From Rhodospirillales bacterium (GTDB taxonomy: Bacteria; Pseudomonadota; Alphaproteobacteria; ATCC43930; CGMCC-115725): 49,050 nt of DNA. The notes beneath the pieces are model-generated. The model made no database searches. It was not told the DNA's origin and saw nothing but the letters and a program-made list of their open reading frames with translations. The stretch spans positions 1-49,050 of the forward strand of contig JAQGID010000026.1 in assembly GCA_028291405.1 (NCBI GenBank), written 5' to 3'. The translations under genes were made by a program, and so were the position numbers. Of this stretch, positions 5,817-41,276 are shown piece by piece. Position 1 is the first letter of the stretch. Every line of letters begins with the position of its first letter.

Positions 5817-7704
5817 AGCTCTCCCACCACATCGCGAAATTCAGGAGATACCATGTCTGCGCGCCGCGGCCCTCGGCGAGCAGCCGGTCGACCTCGGCGC
5901 GATCGAAGAAATCGGTCTCGCGGCAGAAGCGGTCGAGCGTCGCGCGCGTCGTCTCGCCGAGGTTGCCGGCGAACCATTCCTTCACCGGCACGCCGAACCC
6001 CTGCTTGGGGCGGCTGAGGATTGCGGGCGGCAGCAGCTTCTCGACCGCCTTCTTGAGGATATATTTCAGCTCGCCGTGGCGCGTCTTGACCGCGGTCGGC
6101 AACGCCATCGCCAGCGCGACGATCTCGTGATCGAGGAAGGGAACCCGCGCCTCGAGCCCGACCGACATGCTCATCTTGTCGACCCGCATCAGCAGCAGCT
6201 CGGGCAGGCGCAAATTGAGGTCGAGATAGCTCATCCAATTGAGCGCCGACGGCTCCGGCGCCTTGTCGCGGAAATGCTGTTCGATCGGTGCCAGCGCGTC
6301 CCACGAGCTGAGGTCGCGGAACTGCGCCCGCAGCCGCGGCGACAGGAGGCGGCGCTTGCGCGTTTCGGTGAAGGCCTCGGCGCCGCCCCAGAACAGCCCC
6401 TGGCCGGCGGCGGCGCGGCGCAGCAACTCGGTGTAGCTGCGCTCGCCCCGCCCAGCAGCTTCGAGCAGCGCGACGCCGAGCCCTTTCAGCGCGCGCGGTA
6501 CCGGCAAGCCGTTGACGCGCTCGAGGTTCATCACGGTGCGCCAGCCGGGATAGCCCCAGAACAGCTCGTCGGCGCCTTCGCCGACCTGGCAGGCGGTGAC
6601 GCCATGCGCCCGCGCCAGCTTCGAGACGAAATGCACCGGCACGCAGACCGGGTCGGCGATCGGCTCGTCCTGCAGCCGCACCATCTCCGGCAGGAAGTCG
6701 AGGAGATCGTTCTCGGTCAACAGCAGCTCGTGATGTTCCGAGCCGACGCGCTCGGCCATCAGCCGCGCATAGGGCAGCTCATCGGCGACGCTGGCGTGCA
6801 CGCCGGCATAGCCGATCGCGAAGCTGCGCGGCGGACCGCCGTCGGTCTCGGCGAAGAGCGCCAGATTGGTGCTGGAATCGATGCCGCCGGAGAGGAAGAC
6901 GCCCTGCGGCACGTCGGCGACCTTATGGAAGGCGACGGATTCGCGCAGCGCCTCGAGCAGTCGGTCGGCGTGCTCGGCATCGCTGACGCCGCCGATCGTC
7001 GCGGCGTGGTCGAGGACGTCCCACCAGCGCTTTTCGGTGACCTCGCCGCTCGCCGTGATGCGCAGCCAGTGCGCCGCCGGCAGCTTGCGGATGCCGCGGA
7101 ACAGGGTCTGCGGCGCCGGCGCGGTCAGGAAGGAGAGGAAGTGGAAGAGGGCTTCCTCGTCGACCGCGCGGCCGCGCTGCTTGTCAGCGAGCAGCGCCTT
7201 GATCTCGGAAGCGAAGGCGATGCCCTCGCCGTCGAGGGCGTAGTACAGCGGCTTGATGCCGATGCGATCGCGCACCAGCCAGAGCGTGCGCTCGGTATTG
7301 TCCCAGAGCGCGAAGGCGAACATGCCGCGCAGTCGGTCGAGACAGGCGATGCCCCATTCCGCGAAGGCGTTGAGCAGGACCTCGGTATCGGAATGGTCGG
7401 TCTGCCAGCGATGCCGGCCGAGGGCTTCGAGCTCGCGACGGAGTTCGCGATGATTGTAGATCTCGCCGTTGAAGACGATCTGATAGCGCCCATCGACGCT
7501 CGCCATCGGCTGCGCTGCGGAATCGCTGAGATCGATGATCGAAAGCCGACGATGCGCGAGGCCGATGCGACGCTCGCCGTCGATCCACAAGCCGGCGCCG
7601 TCGGGACCGCGATGCGCCATGGCATCACGCATCGCCAGCAGCAATGTCTCTTCGACCCGCCGCCGCGCCGCGGGGAAGACCAGAATTCCGGCGATGCCGC
7701 ACAT
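5803..7704 (-). CDS. Asparagine synthase (glutamine-hydrolysing)-like amidotransferase, full length
   Basis: A complete 633-residue AsnB-type protein. The N-terminal glutaminase domain starts MCGIAG with Cys2 as nucleophile and continues with AHRGPDGAGLW, HRRLSIIDLS, FNGEIYNHRELRRELE and HSDTEVLLNAF. The synthetase domain (from about residue 230) has the ATP-pyrophosphatase loop FLSGGIDSS, then GYAGVHASVADELPYAR and QVGEGADELFWGYPGW. C-terminal VGLEARVPFLDHEIV and RPKQGFGVPVKEW are typical of the AsnB subfamily found in polysaccharide and sialic acid loci. It would form an amide from glutamine and ATP, on aspartate or on a carboxyl sugar. It starts 28 bases after the upstream glycosyltransferase. 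Confidence 0.94.
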   Translation of the reverse strand: MCGIAGILVFPAARRRVEETLLLAMRDAMAHRGPDGAGLWIDGERRIGLAHRRLSIIDLSDSAAQPMASVDGRYQIVFNGEIYNHRELRRELEALGRHRWQTDHSDTEVLLNAFAEWGIACLDRLRGMFAFALWDNTERTLWLVRDRIGIKPLYYALDGEGIAFASEIKALLADKQRGRAVDEEALFHFLSFLTAPAPQTLFRGIRKLPAAHWLRITASGEVTEKRWWDVLDHAATIGGVSDAEHADRLLEALRESVAFHKVADVPQGVFLSGGIDSSTNLALFAETDGGPPRSFAIGYAGVHASVADELPYARLMAERVGSEHHELLLTENDLLDFLPEMVRLQDEPIADPVCVPVHFVSKLARAHGVTACQVGEGADELFWGYPGWRTVMNLERVNGLPVPRALKGLGVALLEAAGRGERSYTELLRRAAAGQGLFWGGAEAFTETRKRRLLSPRLRAQFRDLSSWDALAPIEQHFRDKAPEPSALNWMSYLDLNLRLPELLLMRVDKMSMSVGLEARVPFLDHEIVALAMALPTAVKTRHGELKYILKKAVEKLLPPAILSRPKQGFGVPVKEWFAGNLGETTRATLDRFCRETDFFDRAEVDRLLAEGRGAQTWYLLNFAMWWESYVAA

Positions 7705-12777: not shown

Positions 12778-14682
12778 CTAGATGCTGTAGGGCGGCTCGA
12801 GCGTCTGCTCGTCGATCGCGAAGACGCGTTCAACGTAGGCGACGAGGCGTGCCAGGCTGTCGGCGATGGTCTCCTTGGAGCCGTCGATCACGAGCTCCGG
12901 CGATGGCGGCGGCTCGTAGGGCGCCGATACGCCGGTGAAATCGGCGATCTCGCCGGCCCGCGCCTTGCGGTAGAGGCCCTTGACGTCGCGCGCCTCGCAG
13001 ACCTCGAGCGGCGTCGCGATATGGATCTCGTGGAACAGCTCGCGATGCGCCGCGCGGACCCGCTCGCGGTCGGCGAGATAGGGCGATATGAAGGCGGTGA
13101 TGACGATCGTGCCGGATCTAGCCATCAGCGCGGCGACCTCGCCGACACGGCGGATGTTCTGGACGCGATCTTCCGGCGAGAAGCCGAGATCGGCGTTGAG
13201 CCCGTGGCGGATGTTGTCGCCGTCGAGCACCGCCACCTGAAAGCCCTTGGAGAAGAGGATGCGCTCGAGCTCCATCGCCATCGTCGATTTGCCGGAGCCC
13301 GAGTAGCCGGTGAACCACATGATGCCGCTGCGGTGGCCGTTGAAGCGCCAGCGGTCGGCGAGCAGAACACGATCCTCGACCGGCGTCAGATTGGTCGATT
13401 TGACGCTGCCGCGGACGCGCTGGTCGGGGTAGCCCTCCATCGAGATGATGCCGCCGCCGACGATCGTATAGTCCTCGACCAGGACGAAGCGGCCGGTGCG
13501 CGGGCTCGTCGTGAACTCGTCGAGCGCCAGCACGGCACGGGCGCGCAGCACGATCTCGGCGACGGCATTGCGCTCGACCGCCTCGGTCGGCTTGCTCGAC
13601 AAATCGGCGGTGTCGATGACGCGCTCGATTTTCTCGACGCGCGCCTCGACGTCGTTGGTCATGAACTTGAGACGATAACGGGCGCCGGAGCGCAGCGGCT
13701 GGTGGCCAAGCCAGAAGATGCGGGCGCGGAAGACGTTGGACAGGATCGGCGCCGTCTCGAGATGGCTCGCGACCTGGCCGCGCTCGACGAAAATCTGCTC
13801 GTCGAGGGTGATGCCGATCGATTTGCCGGCGCCGGCGGTGATTTCGGCGCCGCTGGTGTTCCAGCTTTCGATCGAGGCGACCCGCGCCGTTTTGCTCGAT
13901 GGCGAGAAGAGCAGCGTGTCGCCGACATGCAGGCGCCCCGCCTCGATGCGACCGGCGATGATGCGGCGCGCGTCGAGCTTGTAGACGTCCTGGATAGGCA
14001 GGCGCAGCGGCAGGTCGAGCTCGGCGACCGGCTGCGGAATCGCGTCCAGCGCCGCAAGCAGGGTCGGGCCGGTGTACCAGCCCATCTTTGGCGAAGGTGC
14101 CGCGATAAGGTCGCCGTTGCGGCCGGAGACCGGCACGACGGCGACGTCCGCGGCGGCGAGGCCGATCGCGCCGAGATAGGCCAGCAGCTCCTGCCGCACC
14201 TCGACGAAGCGCCGTTCGGCGTAGTCGACGAGGTCCATCTTGTTGACCAGCGCAACGACGCGGCGGATGCCGAGGATATGCAGCAGATAGGCGTGGCGAC
14301 GGGTCTGCTCCTGGATGCCGTCATGGCCGTCGACGACGAGGATGGCGGCATCGGCGCTGGCCGCGCCGGTCACCATGTTCTTGAGGAACTCCTTGTGGCC
14401 GGGCGCGTCGATCAGCACGTAGTCGCGGGCGTCCGTCTTGAAATGGATCTGCGTCGTGTCGATCGTGATGCCCTGGTCGCGCTCGGCCTGCAGCGCGTCC
14501 ATCAGGAAGGCCCATTCGAAGGGCATGCCGCGCTTTGCCGACATCGCCTGGATCGCGGCGAATTTGGCCTCGGGCAGCGCGCCGGTCGCATGGATCAGCC
14601 GGCCGACGATCGTCGACTTGCCGTGATCGACATGGCCGACGACGACGATCTTGAGGCTGTTGCGTGAGGTCTCGGCCACCAT
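12778..14682 (-). CDS. cysN/cysC: Bifunctional sulfate adenylyltransferase subunit 1 / adenylylsulfate kinase
   Basis: The 634-residue fusion starts at the ATG at 14682, one base after the cysD stop. The N-terminal GTPase domain has GHVDHGKST (G1), DAPGHKEF (G3) and NKMD (G4), with GITIDTTQIHF as the switch region, followed by EF-Tu-like beta domains. From about residue 450 comes APS kinase: GYSGSGKSTMAMELE (P-loop), LDGDNIRHGLNADLGFS and FISPYLADRERVR. CysN with CysD makes APS from sulfate and ATP using GTP hydrolysis; the kinase domain converts APS to PAPS. This NodQ-like fusion usually supplies sulfotransferases rather than only cysteine synthesis. Its place between nonulosonate genes suggests a sulfated glycan, but no sulfotransferase is visible. 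Confidence 0.95.
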   Translation of the reverse strand: MVAETSRNSLKIVVVGHVDHGKSTIVGRLIHATGALPEAKFAAIQAMSAKRGMPFEWAFLMDALQAERDQGITIDTTQIHFKTDARDYVLIDAPGHKEFLKNMVTGAASADAAILVVDGHDGIQEQTRRHAYLLHILGIRRVVALVNKMDLVDYAERRFVEVRQELLAYLGAIGLAAADVAVVPVSGRNGDLIAAPSPKMGWYTGPTLLAALDAIPQPVAELDLPLRLPIQDVYKLDARRIIAGRIEAGRLHVGDTLLFSPSSKTARVASIESWNTSGAEITAGAGKSIGITLDEQIFVERGQVASHLETAPILSNVFRARIFWLGHQPLRSGARYRLKFMTNDVEARVEKIERVIDTADLSSKPTEAVERNAVAEIVLRARAVLALDEFTTSPRTGRFVLVEDYTIVGGGIISMEGYPDQRVRGSVKSTNLTPVEDRVLLADRWRFNGHRSGIMWFTGYSGSGKSTMAMELERILFSKGFQVAVLDGDNIRHGLNADLGFSPEDRVQNIRRVGEVAALMARSGTIVITAFISPYLADRERVRAAHRELFHEIHIATPLEVCEARDVKGLYRKARAGEIADFTGVSAPYEPPPSPELVIDGSKETIADSLARLVAYVERVFAIDEQTLEPPYSI

Positions 14683-14683
14683 C

Positions 14684-15478
14684 TCAGAGATACCCGTCCG
14701 AGCGCAGCCGTTCGAAACTGTCCTCGGATTCATGATCCATTGCGCGGCCCGAGCGTTCGGAGATTTGCGTCGTCTCGAGCTCAGCGATGATCTTCTCGAT
14801 CGTATCCGCCTGGCTGTCCACCGGGAAGGTGATGTCCTTGTCGCCGAGCGAGCGGTAGCGCTTGCCGTTCTTGGCGAAATAGAGATCGACGAGGGGGATG
14901 CGCTCGCGCTGGACGTAGCGCCAGATGTCGAGCTCGGTCCAATGCAGGATCGGGTGGATCCGGACGTGGGTCCCCGGCGGGAACTCGGTGTTGTACTGAT
15001 CCCAGAACTCGGGCGGCTGGTCGCGGAAGTCCCATTTGCCGCCCTCGCCGCGCGGGCTGAAGACGCGCTCCTTGGCGCGCGTCCCTTCCTCGTCGCGGCG
15101 GATGCCGGCGATCAACCCGTTGTAGCCGTGCTGCTTGATCAGCGCCTTGAGCCCTTCGGTCTTGCGCGCCGCCGAACGGGTCGCCGGCGGCAGCGTCGGG
15201 TCGATCTCGTCGATCGGCGGGCACTCGCCGATCACCAGATCGAGGTTCCATTCATGGCGGTAGCGGTCGCGGAACGCATACATCTCCGGCATCTTCTTGC
15301 CGGTGTCGATGTTGACGATCGGGAAGGGAACGTGGCCGAAGAACGCCTTCTTGGCGAGCCAGACGAGGACGTTGGAATCCTTGCCGAACGACCACAGCAT
15401 CCCGAGCTTGTCGATGCGATTGAACGCCTCGCGGATGATATAGATGCTTTCGGCTTCGATCGTATCGAGATGGTTCAT
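14684..15478 (-). CDS. cysD: Sulfate adenylyltransferase subunit 2
   Basis: About 264 residues from the ATG at 15478 (MNHLDTIEAESIYIIREAFN). The PP-loop is WSFGKDSNVLVWLAKKAF, followed by FPIVNIDTGKKMPEMYAFRD and AGIRRDEEGTRAKERVFSPR. HPILHWTELDIWRYV and the C-terminal SQADTIEKIIAELETTQISER then GYL end are diagnostic of CysD. It carries the catalytic site that joins ATP and sulfate to form APS, as a complex with CysN. The frame extends upstream to 15583 but those residues are non-conserved and cover a candidate promoter and hairpin. Confidence 0.95.
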   Translation of the reverse strand: MNHLDTIEAESIYIIREAFNRIDKLGMLWSFGKDSNVLVWLAKKAFFGHVPFPIVNIDTGKKMPEMYAFRDRYRHEWNLDLVIGECPPIDEIDPTLPPATRSAARKTEGLKALIKQHGYNGLIAGIRRDEEGTRAKERVFSPRGEGGKWDFRDQPPEFWDQYNTEFPPGTHVRIHPILHWTELDIWRYVQRERIPLVDLYFAKNGKRYRSLGDKDITFPVDSQADTIEKIIAELETTQISERSGRAMDHESEDSFERLRSDGYL

Positions 15479-15498
15479 GTCAGGCGTCCGACGGCGAA

Positions 15499-15519
15499 GC
15501 TCCCCGGGCCGCGGGGAGC
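15499..15519. repeat. Perfect 8-bp inverted repeat (stem-loop) in the cysD leader
   Basis: GCTCCCCG and its exact complement CGGGGAGC are separated by 5 bases. It lies just downstream of the candidate -10, so the transcript would start close to or within it. There is no U-tract, so it is more likely a leader hairpin or operator than a terminator. Confidence 0.5.
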
Positions 15520-15522
15520 GCG

Positions 15523-15551
15523 GATATAGCGGAATGGCGTCGGTGCGACAA
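15523..15551 (-). promoter_or_regulatory. Candidate sigma-70-type promoter for cysD-cysNC
   Basis: On the minus strand TTGTCG (15551-15546) and TATATC (15528-15523) are 17 bases apart, each matching four of six consensus positions. It lies in the 120-base gap before cysD, about 45 bases upstream of its ATG, and would give this part of the operon its own start. Motif match only. Confidence 0.4.
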
Positions 15552-15598
15552 GCGCGCCGGTCGCGGCGCGGCTTGCGATCCAAAGCCGATGGTTGTCT

Positions 15599-24751: not shown

Positions 24752-25255
24752 TCAGCCGCGCAGCATGGCGATCAGCGACAGCACGCGTGCGCCGGCGGCG
24801 AAATCCGGTTGGCAAGCGCGCTGCTCGCGGGCGGCGGTGACGCAGCCCTCGGCAAGGCGGCGAAAAGGTGGCAGCCTGCCATTGTCCGAGTTGCCCTGCT
24901 CAGCGGCCTGGACGACGACCCGACCCGTTTCGTCCAGCGCCGTGAAGCTGAACCCGGCCATGTAATCCCAGCGGGCGTTCTCAACCACTGTGAAGGCAAT
25001 CTCCCAGCGGTGCAGCGGTCGCTCCGGTCGGCTTTGGTGATCGTTGCTATACCCCTGAGCTCCTGAGGGGAAGTCGAAGGGCCATTCGATCATGTCGAGC
25101 CGGGCCTTGCCGTCCTTGCCGAGGATGTCCTTGCGGATCTCTATGCCGATCAGCTCGAAGCCGACGTCGGCAAGGACCGTCGTTAGCGTCAGGCCGACAT
25201 AGCCCAGCCCGAAGACGCAGACACGGCGATCCGGATAATTGGCGGGTACGATCAG
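24752..25255 (-). pseudogene. Chimeric sugar-dehydrogenase remnant (UDP-sugar dehydrogenase start joined to an oxidoreductase-like end)
   Basis: The open frame here has no plausible ATG, GTG or TTG close to its conserved start; the nearest ATG is at 25426, deep inside the NUDIX gene. The first part, VCVFGLGYVGLTLTTVLADV then GIEIRKDI, is the NAD-binding loop of UDP-glucose/UDP-ManNAc dehydrogenases. After about 40 residues this stops matching and the rest (WEIAFTVVENARWDYMAGF ... PDFAAGARVLSLIAMLRG) looks like the C-terminus of a Gfo/Idh/MocA oxidoreductase. Such a join suggests a deletion that fused the start of one gene to the end of another. It is too short for either family. A short functional protein starting at CTG 25255 or ATG inside cannot be excluded. 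Confidence 0.5.
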
Positions 25256-25791
25256 AATAGACCTCGCAGGATCGCCATCCCGAGGATCGCGACATGAGGA
25301 GCGTGGTCGAAGGTGCCGTTCGTAACCATGTCTTTCAGCTGTTGTTTGGTCACGAGGCGTGGCTCGACGCCAGGCTCCGGTTGCCAGCCGGCCTGGGCGC
25401 CCACGGGCTTGGCATGGAAACACCACACCCGGTTCTCCAGCCGCGCGCTGTCGGCGATCAGATTGCCGATCAACTGGGGCGGCGTCGCCGTTGCAAATCC
25501 GGTCTCCTCGGCCAGCTCGCGCTGGGCGCAGGTGGCCGGATCCTCGCCGTCGTCGAGGAGGCCGCCGGGCAGCTCGATCGTACGGCGCTCGAGGGCGGGG
25601 CGGAACTGTTCCACGACGACGATGCGTCCGTCATCGGTTTCAGCCAGCAAGGACACGTAATCGGCTACGACGAACGAGTGGTAGAGCTGGGGCGTCTCGC
25701 TTGCGCCGGAAAACCGCACGTCGCGCTCGGTCAGGGTCACCCAGGGGGAGAGCACGGTCTGCCGGCGGGTGGCGATGGTGGGATCTGACAT
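25252..25791 (-). CDS. NUDIX hydrolase (ADP-sugar pyrophosphatase-like)
   Basis: The 179-residue protein has a complete Nudix box: ELPGGLLDDGE, then RELAEETGF, matching G-x5-E-x7-REUxEExGU. ETPQLYHSFVVADYVSLLAE and VVVEQFRPALERRTIELPGG before it resemble the NudF/ADP-ribose pyrophosphatase subfamily. It hydrolyses nucleoside diphosphates linked to another group, here perhaps a nucleotide sugar. It starts about 94 bases after the antiterminator gene stop. Substrate is inferred from subfamily resemblance only. Confidence 0.88.
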   Translation of the reverse strand: MSDPTIATRRQTVLSPWVTLTERDVRFSGASETPQLYHSFVVADYVSLLAETDDGRIVVVEQFRPALERRTIELPGGLLDDGEDPATCAQRELAEETGFATATPPQLIGNLIADSARLENRVWCFHAKPVGAQAGWQPEPGVEPRLVTKQQLKDMVTNGTFDHAPHVAILGMAILRGLF

Positions 25792-25884
25792 AGTCTCGGC
25801 CGGCTCCGGCGAAAAGGCACGCTACCGCAGTCCGGGTGAAAACGATGTCACCAGACGTTGGGTCGAATCGGTCGCCCGCGACCT

Positions 25885-26388
25885 TCAGGCGACGGCCCGA
25901 AGCATCTCCGGCGAGACGCGGACGCGAATCTCGCGGCCGAGAAGGTGGAGGAGCAGCGTGACCCGCTCCTCGTCGCTCGTCGCCTCGACGAGGCCCTGCA
26001 GCCCGTCGAAAGCGCCGTCCATGATCTCGACGAGCTGGCCGCTTCGGAAGTGATCGGCGCTCCGCAGCCTGACGACGCCCTCGGCGTCCTCGCTCGCCTG
26101 GATCTGCTCGATGATGCCCGGCGGCACCGGCACGGGATGATCGCAGGTCGAGACCAGCCCGGCGACGCCGATCGTCGAGCGGATCGCTCGCCACGCTGCC
26201 TGGTTGATATCCATGCGCACGAAGAGATAGCGCGGAAACAACGGCTTGCGGACCAGGCCGACACGCCGTGCGTGCCGGATTTTCTTCAACATCTGAGGCA
26301 GATAGACGGTATAGGCCTGTCGTCGAAGATGCGTCGCCGCCTTGATCTCGCAATGCGCGTGCGTATGAACGACGTACCAGCGATCCAT
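25885..26388 (-). CDS. NusG/RfaH-type transcription antitermination protein
   Basis: The 167-residue protein opens MDRWYVVHTHAHCEIKAATHL, the NGN domain start, then RKPLFPRYLFVRMDINQAAWR and STIGVAGLVSTCDHPVPVPP, the classic NusG core. The C-terminal KOW-like part is FRSGQLVEIMDGAFDGLQGL followed by EERVTLLLHLLGREIRVRV. Specialised NusG paralogs such as RfaH, LoaP and UpxY bind RNA polymerase and let it read through long, terminator-containing polysaccharide operons. It sits at the head of a minus-strand gene run that extends to the left window edge, with a candidate promoter and operator directly upstream, so it probably controls the whole locus. No clear Shine-Dalgarno precedes its ATG. Confidence 0.9.
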   Translation of the reverse strand: MDRWYVVHTHAHCEIKAATHLRRQAYTVYLPQMLKKIRHARRVGLVRKPLFPRYLFVRMDINQAAWRAIRSTIGVAGLVSTCDHPVPVPPGIIEQIQASEDAEGVVRLRSADHFRSGQLVEIMDGAFDGLQGLVEATSDEERVTLLLHLLGREIRVRVSPEMLRAVA

Positions 26389-26490
26389 CGGGTTATTGCT
26401 TCCGTCGCGATGACACGCGCGTCATTCAGATCATCTTCGGTGAGAGCCGGCGGGCCGCGAGGCTCCGTGCCGGACGGCGTGTCCCAACCC

Positions 26491-26517
26491 AGCTATGTTC
26501 ACATGCTGAACATAGCT
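26491..26517. promoter_or_regulatory. Perfect 11-bp inverted repeat, candidate operator
   Basis: AGCTATGTTCA and its exact complement TGAACATAGCT flank a 5-base spacer CATGC. It is AT-rich in a GC-rich surround, and no T-run follows on either side, which argues against a terminator. It overlaps the candidate -10. The size suits a dimeric helix-turn-helix repressor or activator; the regulator is not in the window. Confidence 0.65.
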
Positions 26518-26538
26518 TCGCGCGAAAGTTGGTGTCAA
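26509..26538 (-). promoter_or_regulatory. Candidate strong promoter of the antiterminator/polysaccharide operon
   Basis: On the minus strand a perfect -35 TTGACA (26538-26533) and -10 TATGTT (26514-26509; four of six matches) are 18 bases apart. This gives a leader of roughly 110 bases to the antiterminator ATG at 26388. The -10 lies within one arm of the inverted repeat at 26491-26517, so a protein bound to that repeat would block or modulate the promoter. Confidence 0.55.
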
Positions 26539-26563: not shown

Positions 26564-27598
26564 TCACATAAGCCTCTCGAACGCGGCCGCGGCATCGTTC
26601 CAGCCGTATTGACGCTTGCCTGCCAAAGCCGCGGCGTGCTGCGCCGACCACAGCGAATCGTCGGTGAGGAGCCGGATCGTCGCCGTCGCGAACTGCGACT
26701 CGTCCCTGACGACGAAACCGGTCTTGCCCTCGTCGATGCGCTCGGCCATCGAGCCGATGTCCTGGACGACCCCCGGAACGCCCATTGCCTGCGCTTCGCC
26801 GGCCGAGGCGCAATAGGTCTCGCTGGAATCGCCGCGATAGAGATAGACGCGCGCCGCGACCATCTCTGCGACGAGCGCATGCTTCGGCACCGGGTCGTGG
26901 AGGACGACTCCGGCGCTGCGGAGCGACCGCGCCCGGTCGAGGATCGCGTTCATCGCCGCCGCCTTGGCCTTGCCCATCGCGCCATAGGTCGCCGCGCCGG
27001 AGAAGACATGGAACTTTGCGGTCGGAACCTGCGGAAAGACCCGCTCGGCCCAGACCTCGAGCAGCCAATCGAGCGACCGCAACGGATTCGAGGTGAAGAT
27101 GGCGCGGGGGGGCGGCGGCTCCGTCGCCGGCGGGGTCGTCCGGAAGATTTCCGAGATGCCGTAAGGGATCTCGCGGCGGAGGCCGCTCGGCGCCCAGGCC
27201 GGATAGGTCGACGCGTGATAGGGGCCTGAAAAGACGATTATCGGCCGCCGCCGCGCCAGTTTCCAGAGATAGCGAACCTTCATCAGGTACTGGGCCGGGT
27301 TGTGGACCCAGAAGACCGTCGTCCGTGCCTGCGGTACGAGCGCGAGCAGCTTGTCGCCGCGGTTGGCGATGTAAAGATCGGCGGCCGGCGGCAGCGGCGT
27401 CGCCGAGATCGGCTGCCACTGGACGCCCCGGTGCCGCAGCGTTGCCGCGCAATTCGTATAGGCCGTGACAAGGTGGCCGCGGGCGGCCAGAGCTTCGGCG
27501 AGGCCGACGAAGGCGGATTCGGCCCCGCCGAGCGGCTGCAGCTCGGCGCTTCGGCCATCGAACTCGATGCCGTCGTCCGCCATCACGATGTCTGCCAT
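26564..27598 (-). CDS. Glycosyltransferase-like protein (GT-B)
   Basis: About 344 residues from the ATG at 27598 (MADIVMADDGIEFDGRSAEL); the frame to 28135 is antisense to the divergent oxidase gene and is not real upstream of this point. LQPLGGAESAFVGLAEALAA is the glycine loop; FWVHNPAQYLMKVRYLW, KFHVFSGAATYGAMGKAK and CASAGEAQAMGVPGVVQDIG (the donor E-region) mark a GT4-like enzyme. It stands apart from the rest of the locus by a 175-base gap holding the candidate promoter, and is divergent from the oxidase gene. Substrates are unknown. Confidence 0.8.
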   Translation of the reverse strand: MADIVMADDGIEFDGRSAELQPLGGAESAFVGLAEALAARGHLVTAYTNCAATLRHRGVQWQPISATPLPPAADLYIANRGDKLLALVPQARTTVFWVHNPAQYLMKVRYLWKLARRRPIIVFSGPYHASTYPAWAPSGLRREIPYGISEIFRTTPPATEPPPPRAIFTSNPLRSLDWLLEVWAERVFPQVPTAKFHVFSGAATYGAMGKAKAAAMNAILDRARSLRSAGVVLHDPVPKHALVAEMVAARVYLYRGDSSETYCASAGEAQAMGVPGVVQDIGSMAERIDEGKTGFVVRDESQFATATIRLLTDDSLWSAQHAAALAGKRQYGWNDAAAAFERLM

Positions 27599-40073: not shown

Positions 40074-41276
40074 ATGAGCGTCACGGTGCAGGCGAGGGGG
40101 AGCGAGACGGACCATGCGACGCTCGTCGCGCGCGCCGCGGCGCTCGTTCCCGATCTTCTCGAGCGCGCCGCCGAGGCCGAGCGGCTGCGCAAGGTGCCGC
40201 TGGAGAATATCGCGGCGCTGCGCAACGCCGGTCTCCTCAAGATCCTGCAGGCGCGGCGCTACGGCGGCCATCAGGCATCGTTGCGCACCCATGTCGACGT
40301 CGTCGCCGCGCTCGCCGGCGGCTGCGCCTCGACCGCCTGGTGCGTCGGGGTCATCCATGCCCATAGCTGGCTGATGGCGCAGTTTCCGCGGGCGGCGCAG
40401 GAGGAAACCTACGGCGCCAATCCCGACGCCATCATCTCGGCGGTGATCGCGGCGCGCGGCAAGGCGCGCGCCGTCGACGGCGGCTACGTTCTGAACGGCT
40501 TCTGGCCCTTTGCCTCGGGTTCTCAGCATGCCGATTTCCTGTTCCTCGGCGCTGCCGTAATCAACGAGACCGGCGAGACGGTCGACGAGGGCGATCTCCT
40601 CGTCCCGACGTCAGATATCGTCATCAAGGACGATTGGAACGTCGTCGGGCTGCGCGGCACCGGCAGCTGCAGCATCGTCGCCAAGGACGTCTTCGTCCCG
40701 GCGCACCGCTATCTGTCGCTGCCGGGGCTGATCGGCGGACAGACGCCTGGCCAGGCGCTGCACGAGGGCTGGCTCTATCGCTCGGCCGCCGTGCCGGTGC
40801 TGACTCTGGCCCTAGCGCCAGCCGCCCTCGGCACGGCGCAAGCTGCGCTCGAATCCTTCAAAAAGCGCCTGCCGGGCCGCGAAATCGCGTATACGCAACA
40901 CGAAATTCAGATCGACTCGCCGGTGACGCATATCCAGGCGGCGACGGCAGCAACCAAGATCGATACGGCGCAGCTGCTGCTGCACTACTGCGCCGACGAG
41001 ATCCAGGCCGCCGCCGAACGCGGCGAGGCGATGGATTTTGCCAAGCGGGCGCGCGTCCGGATGGATTGCGCCTTCGCCGTGCGGCTCTGCCTCGAGGCGG
41101 TCGAGACGATCTATCTCGCCTCGGGCGGCTCCGGCATCGCCGAGACCAGCACGATCCAGCGGGCATCGCGCGATATTCATGCCGTCAACATGCATGGGCT
41201 GCTCAGCCTGGAGACCAACGCCGAGATGTACGGCCGCGTCGTCCTCGGCCTGACGCCGAACACACCGCTGATCTGA
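40074..41276 (+). CDS. Group D flavin-dependent monooxygenase (HsaA/HpaH-like, acyl-CoA dehydrogenase fold)
   Basis: The 400-residue protein has an acyl-CoA dehydrogenase fold but lacks the usual catalytic Glu context; LRNAGLLKILQARRYGGHQA, GCASTAWCVGVIHAHSWLMA and FWPFASGSQHADFLFLGA (flavin region) match HsaA, C2-type p-hydroxyphenylacetate hydroxylase and dibenzothiophene monooxygenase relatives. GSGIAETSTIQRASRDIHAV near the C-terminus is the typical end. These enzymes use reduced FMN/FAD supplied by a separate flavin reductase to hydroxylate aromatic rings; no reductase gene is in the window. It most likely makes the catechol that the next gene cleaves. A GGGGAGG ribosome site precedes it. 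Confidence 0.88.
   Translation: MSVTVQARGSETDHATLVARAAALVPDLLERAAEAERLRKVPLENIAALRNAGLLKILQARRYGGHQASLRTHVDVVAALAGGCASTAWCVGVIHAHSWLMAQFPRAAQEETYGANPDAIISAVIAARGKARAVDGGYVLNGFWPFASGSQHADFLFLGAAVINETGETVDEGDLLVPTSDIVIKDDWNVVGLRGTGSCSIVAKDVFVPAHRYLSLPGLIGGQTPGQALHEGWLYRSAAVPVLTLALAPAALGTAQAALESFKKRLPGREIAYTQHEIQIDSPVTHIQAATAATKIDTAQLLLHYCADEIQAAAERGEAMDFAKRARVRMDCAFAVRLCLEAVETIYLASGGSGIAETSTIQRASRDIHAVNMHGLLSLETNAEMYGRVVLGLTPNTPLI

Follow-up and report, generated by a model that had tools for sequence, protein, structure and literature searches.

A putative operator over the -10 hexamer of a surface-glycan promoter, paired in relatives with genes for a MarR_EPS-type regulator and an RfaH-like protein

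Which protein reads a perfect palindrome that lies across the promoter of a surface-glycan locus, and what would it do there? The question comes from a stretch of 49,050 nucleotides of a Rhodospirillales genome, called here the window. A preliminary description of these letters had noticed an 11-bp inverted repeat over a -10 hexamer and had proposed it as an operator that switches the whole locus. Our answer is that the palindrome is a putative operator that a MarR_EPS-type regulator would bind in trans, a reading to which we assign a probability of about 0.85 on the strength of sequence comparisons. The sign of the regulation is a separate matter. Repression is the probable mode, because the operator covers the -10 hexamer.

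Promoter, palindrome and the genes behind them

The promoter is read on the minus strand, where an 18-base spacer separates TTGACA (26538-26533) and TATGTT (26514-26509). The -10 hexamer is enclosed by the palindrome AGCTATGTTCA-CATGC-TGAACATAGCT at 26491-26517, a feature without strand, and the outer AGCTAT of the palindrome arm overlaps the promoter. The letters were rechecked, and both the perfect palindrome and the TTGACA-N18-TATGTT promoter with its -10 inside it are as first described. A pattern search of the window together with conservation in relatives marks the palindrome as a putative operator, whose conserved core, GTTCA-N5-TGAAC, occupies 26497-26511 and is the best match of the window to the position weight matrix (PWM), with a score of 23.6. 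The 11-bp arm appears larger than the recognition site; judged from the relatives, the kept part is GTTCA-N5-TGAAC with an outer Y/R pair. The site falls in the 175 bp that separate a glycosyltransferase gene, whose stop is at 26564, from a NusG-domain gene (25885-26388), and the predicted 5' leader of the nusG operon, with its start point reckoned from the -10 hexamer, covers 26389-26503 on the minus strand.

Counts alone do not single out the site. The window holds three perfect inverted repeats with arms of at least 11 and a gap of at most 20, where 20 first-order Markov simulations average 1.2, and we rejected the palindrome as significant on its own. With up to three mismatches the palindrome pattern matches once in the 49-kb window and never in 100 shuffles. 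The genome scan for further copies that the preliminary description had proposed gave one place for the full palindrome, again with up to three mismatches, in the 6.48-Mb assembly of 461 contigs. The perfect 15-base core occurs at two places in the genome and its reversed control at none, and we estimate that about two would be expected from base composition. The second copy lies on contig C345, where only the 400 bases around it were read. No further operator with an N5 or N4 spacer and at most one mismatch was found in the window, and the N5 core with up to two mismatches gave 10 matches there, against 8.5 in shuffles. One of these 10, an operator-like site at 41175 (41173-41191) inside an open reading frame, has the second-best PWM score of the window, 16.8. 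Since both palindrome and core are unremarkable by count, the argument depends on how well the site is conserved in relatives and on the promoter geometry.

The gene that the promoter precedes had been called an antiterminator gene. It encodes a protein of 167 residues (P0001; 25885-26388, minus strand) with a NusG N-terminal domain (PF02357, E 9.4e-23, 81 bits over a cut-off of 22.2). Like RfaH of Escherichia coli, P0001 is a NusG-domain paralogue, but its score of 127.9 bits against the RfaH equivalog model TIGR01955 is below the cut-off of 144.5, and we therefore call it RfaH-like. Domain searches identify a NUDIX-domain gene (25252-25791, minus strand) farther on and then, from 25258 down to 406 on the same strand, mostly glycan-related genes. 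These comprise glycosyltransferases, a UDPG_MGDP_dh_N fragment, a member of the transaldolase family, an ABC transporter, NeuB, UDP-GlcNAc 2-epimerase, an acyltransferase, a PAPS_reduct-domain protein, a GTP_EFTU plus APS-kinase protein, Capsule_synth, asparagine synthase and heparinase II/III. Because the genes run in a common direction, we infer that this minus-strand run of about 26 kb forms one operon with one transcript. The PAPS_reduct-domain gene and the GTP_EFTU plus APS-kinase gene (12778-15583, minus strand) lie inside the glycan cluster, which suggests a sulfated surface glycan.

The putative operator core at regulator loci

A looser form of the core pattern provided a lead only, with matches in 11 of 61 genomes against 5 of 61 for the reversed control; two of its sites lay about 730 bp upstream of nusG-like homologues. 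Among 20 nusG loci, the window included, 11 have a winged-helix gene of about 190-245 residues between the site and the nusG-like gene, and in 10 of these the core, with at most one mismatch, precedes the winged-helix gene. This gene encodes the candidate regulator.

The association was followed in the best 80 of 479 loci encoding the regulator (the named loci), with the core sought within 250 bases upstream of the regulator gene. A perfect GTTCA-N5-TGAAC was found at 77 of the 80, and 79 have it with at most one mismatch; the exceptions to the perfect form are L102 and L116, each with one mismatch, and L115, with no core. Spacers of 2, 3, 4, 6, 7 and 8 and the swapped, reversed and direct-repeat forms were absent without mismatch from all 80. 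With one mismatch allowed, the swapped form was found 7 times, and the reversed, direct-repeat and N3 forms once each. The rest of the named loci, 601,060 bases in all, contains 4 sites. The preliminary description had named in advance, as an outcome that would speak against an operator, a repeat scattered at random in unrelated places and not conserved in relatives; the counts came out the other way. They support its proposal of an operator for the glycan locus, a proposal that presumes binding, a sign of regulation and a single transcript. A second set, the best 30 of 67 regulator matches across the class (found in 65 of 289 genomes), gave a similar result: 26 perfect cores and 29 with at most one mismatch, L143 having none. 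This set partly overlaps the named set, and the named set overlaps the whole-genome set (for example at L020/L048, L018/L049 and L017/L109), so that the counts are not additive.

TTGAC directly abuts the core in 74 of the 80 named loci, so the -35 hexamer seems built into the operator. A -10-like hexamer follows at the right distance in 18 of the 74 TTGAC-bearing sites (106 of 1600 under the null), and sites of the TATGTTC type, as in the window, are rare (5 of 80). A Y/R pair flanks the conserved GTTCA-N5-TGAAC. Copies are often in tandem, mostly 21-29 bp apart with 27 the commonest distance, and many loci have a further copy 5' of the one that bears the -35. At L045 the GTG start codon of the regulator (6472-6474) falls within the right-hand half of an operator copy, close to where transcription is predicted to begin, and several relatives (L016, L017 and L033) show the same arrangement; the regulator message is possibly leaderless there. 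At L247 (genome G234, contig C77, 10036-10115) three successive perfect cores at intervals of 32-33 bp precede the regulator gene, and nusG lies about 3 kb upstream of that gene, not downstream.

The pairing extends to the nusG gene. A nusG-like gene directly follows the regulator gene in 71 of the 80 named loci; among the other nine, L122 has nusG upstream, L115 has a weak partial match and seven have none. Across the class, 41 of 55 nusG matches lie directly behind a regulator gene.

The regulators are of the winged-helix type that the NCBIfam model TIGR04176 (MarR_EPS) describes for EPS-associated MarR family regulators. Of 299 genomes searched across the phylum, 48 match the model and 16 do so over the cut-off; among the 30 loci listed, 16 carry a perfect N5 core. 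Restricted to short, unfused MarR_EPS proteins over the cut-off that are not cut by a contig end, the perfect core precedes 11 of 13 (L198 and L204 are without it), and ORFs adjoining several of these members resemble nucleotide-sugar enzymes, as judged by eye. Three weak matches with other recognition helices (L220, L221 and L222) have no core. The nusG-paired regulators differ from the curated family in two ways. Their scores are below the cut-off of 88 bits (57.3 and 57.7 for two nusG-paired relatives, 61.1 for the regulator on contig C350 of the window's own genome), and they have an extra C-terminal Rossmann-like domain. Conversely, a nusG-like gene is found within about 1.5 kb of only 1 of 15 loci of the short type. 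The winged helix of the C350 protein itself scores 29.4 bits with PF13412 (HTH_24; cut-off 21.9).

In a third architecture, present at seven loci (L207-L212 and L214; family f24), a MarR_EPS-type winged helix is fused to ATP sulfurylase and APS kinase in a frame of about 700 residues, as indicated by Pfam domains for L208 and by sequence motifs common to all seven. Here the site is GTTCA-N4-TGAAC, found at all seven loci and twice in some. A change of spacer with the architecture of the protein is, in our judgement, the strongest indication that the site and the protein form a pair. In the fusions, a metabolic enzyme may regulate itself.

The extra domain of the nusG-paired regulators was examined in an AlphaFold2 model of the L109 homologue. 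The C-terminal alpha/beta domain is modelled with confidence (block means of 94-98 from residue 91), while the winged helix is modelled poorly (pLDDT 48-57). Foldseek gave no match to this model at E 0.001 or better, and no sequence relative of the regulator was found in the PDB below E 0.1. Structural alignment of the C-terminal domain ranked lobes of periplasmic binding proteins at the top (Z 11.1), followed by the CoA-binding domains of succinyl-CoA synthetase (Z 10.4, rmsd 2.5 over 92 residues), UDP-QuiNAc 4-dehydrogenase (Z 9.8, rmsd 2.2 over 87 residues) and WbaP (Z 9.2, rmsd 2.5 over 86 residues). The modelled domain would fit a small-molecule sensor, though we assign no function from any one of these alignments. 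The Rex redox repressors likewise join a winged helix to a Rossmann-type domain, and the C-terminal domain aligns with Rex (Z 9.3, rmsd 2.5 over 88 residues), a similarity of fold in which other Rossmann-type domains do equally well or better. In the Rex operator the half-sites stand in the opposite order to those of GTTCA-N5-TGAAC.

A probable regulator in trans and the alternatives

The preliminary description had suggested a search for the regulator and for further copies of the repeat. The search yielded a candidate regulator and a few sites beside glycan-type genes. The genome of the window has a single regulator match, on contig C350 (5812-6474, minus strand), convergent with an NTP_transferase gene and with no nusG after it. 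Its promoter, TTGACG-N18-TATGTT, has the geometry of the window promoter, and each of its two hexamers is covered by a core that has one mismatch to GTTCA-N5-TGAAC. The combined pattern TTGAC-N19-TATGTTC matches without mismatch at only two places in the genome, the C350 regulator promoter and the window promoter. With one mismatch, four further places match (on C115, C153, C226 and C358), and two match the reversed control; the C115 match includes a one-mismatch core, and the gene after it encodes an E1_dh-domain protein and itself follows an FkbM methyltransferase gene. The comparison suggests that the operator was retained, or acquired again, at the window nusG even though the regulator gene is elsewhere. 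This arrangement is so far a single case. Fourteen of the nusG genes lack a regulator gene immediately upstream. That of the window has an operator with at most one mismatch, and the 13 others provided no second example.

A wide regulon is not apparent from the core counts. In 16 genomes there are 52 perfect cores, 1 to 6 in each, against 26 for the reversed control. Regulator loci account for 23 of the 52, and the other 29 are at the control level in number, so that no enrichment of the core was seen in these genomes away from regulator genes. Eleven of the 29 extra sites, chosen by eye, were examined. Four are by glycan-type genes or a second regulator: L181 (acetyltransferase/aminotransferase), L182 (DegT/aldo-keto reductase), L184 (asparagine-synthase type) and L183, before a second copy of the regulator gene. 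The remaining seven (L185-L189, L191 and L192) were judged from their context to be chance occurrences.

Several other explanations of the palindrome have to be weighed. That it is a chance palindrome over a chance promoter-like match is the least probable of them. A stretch as long as the window should hold about one palindrome of such size, promoter-like matches arise in shuffles at a mean of 0.3 in 3 kb, and the core count is about what composition predicts; but the core is exact, the promoter geometry recurs without mismatch in 6.48 Mb only at the promoter of the regulator, and the site precedes the same gene that follows the regulator in relatives. The closeness of the palindrome to the predicted transcript start, ahead of a NusG-like gene, could also point to an RNA hairpin, serving as an attenuator or as the loading site of the NusG-like protein. 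We consider this very improbable. The palindrome straddles the predicted start, so that half of it would be transcribed; the copies in relatives cover the -35, upstream of the transcript; and a separate ops-like element is found downstream. A hairpin or Rfam element in the nusG leader was rejected, as the leader folds like its shuffles (z 0.38) and has no Rfam match.

The remaining alternatives accept a protein-binding site. One is that some other conserved factor binds the element and that the regulator gene is a frequent member of that factor's regulon. No regulator gene adjoins the window site and binding by the regulator is a prediction, which leaves room for such a factor, but its involvement is improbable. 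The element accompanies the wHTH domain in each of three architectures and also outside the class, its spacer varies with the protein, and the site is found at none of nine nusG genes in genomes where no regulator was detected (one of them with only 108 bp upstream). The other alternative, already counted within the probability of the main reading, is that the same regulator activates or remodels the promoter. An imperfect -10 (TATGTT) with a spacer of 18 would suit an activated promoter, tandem copies mostly 21-29 bp apart could set an activator beside polymerase, and a further copy 5' of the -35-bearing one exists at many loci. Activation is nevertheless unlikely when set against the abutment of core and TTGAC in 74 of 80 loci and the coverage of the -10 in the window. 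Sites that abut the -35 or cover the -10 usually exclude polymerase. These comparisons favor repression by a MarR_EPS-type regulator that acts in trans.

An ops-like element and a proposed second gate

Immediately after the nusG gene is an ops-like element, TCACCCGGACTGCGGTAGCGTG (25818-25839, minus strand), found by an ops-core search and by conservation; the NUDIX-domain gene is the first gene after it. The element includes GCGGTAGCGTG, which matches the core of E. coli ops. The ops-core search of the window gave five one-mismatch matches, among them that at 25819-25829 (minus strand). A scan with up to two mismatches gave 85 matches where 62.7 were expected, so a single match means little. 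Conservation is more informative. The 8-mer GCGGTAGC starts 57 bases past the nusG stop in the window. Of 69 named loci, 50 have it no more than 300 bases beyond the nusG stop, and in 49 of these the distance is 48-104 bases. Permuted 8-mers (n = 200) occur after nusG in a mean of 0.68 of the 69 loci, the largest value being 18, and 13 of 1601 background pieces contain GCGGTAGC. In all 50 loci CACC precedes it by 7 to 10 bases. The 8-mer is also present in 17 of 44 loci of a second, partly overlapping set; the loci without it number 19 in the named set and 27 in the second.

The window element has a longer conserved box than E. coli ops, TCACCCGRASTGCGGTAGC. The extended box occurs without mismatch once in the genome of the window, and the other 10 matches there have three mismatches each and are fewer than those of the reversed control. 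In this the system differs from that of E. coli RfaH: the genome has a single extended box, immediately past the gene for the RfaH-like protein itself. A single box in that position predicts action in cis, and the RfaH-like protein would have one predicted loading site here, through which elongation would be controlled.

The computed features, namely the site, its overlap with the promoter, the conserved presence of regulator gene and nusG beside it, and the conserved ops-like element, lead us to propose a scheme of binding, repression, ligand sensing and loading. The regulator encoded on contig C350 would act in trans on the window promoter. A dimer bound to GTTCA-N5-TGAAC would cover the -10 and most likely keep RNA polymerase out for as long as the C-terminal Rossmann-like domain of the regulator has not sensed a ligand. 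Once released, the promoter would drive the gene for the RfaH-like protein together with the glycan operon. That protein would then load at the ops-like element just past its own gene, and polymerase would complete the long operon. One cassette would in this way gate both initiation (by the operator) and elongation (by the RfaH-like protein) of the glycan operon.

In open-licence full texts of PubMed Central, we found no described binding site for the MarR_EPS-type regulator family. The relevant parts of two papers name a MarR EPS regulator and give no site for it (PMC10599003; PMC8007912). In a survey of RfaH clusters, cluster CL4 is reported to be associated with an HTH regulator, cell-envelope genes are common neighbours of clusters CL2-CL8, and how operon-encoded NusG paralogues are recruited is stated to be unknown; the passages on CL4 give neither an operator nor an ops-like site (PMC7593976). 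A conserved ops-like box directly behind the gene offers a testable answer to the question of recruitment of operon-encoded RfaH-like proteins, as posed in those passages (PMC7593976).

For the regulator family, a searchable operator opens the way to predicted regulons. A broader possibility, which we hold tentatively and at somewhat less than even odds, is an operator code for surface-glycan genes that extends beyond one class. Three MarR_EPS-type architectures (wHTH alone, wHTH with a Rossmann sensor, and wHTH fused to ATP sulfurylase/APS kinase) would read GTTCA-N5/N4-TGAAC on their own promoters and on glycan promoters. In Alphaproteobacteria, a double-gated cassette would join the initiation switch to a cis-acting RfaH-like factor with its own ops-like loading site of about 19 bases. 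If so, a sensor of a glycan precursor or cofactor would gate the glycan operon at two steps, initiation and elongation.
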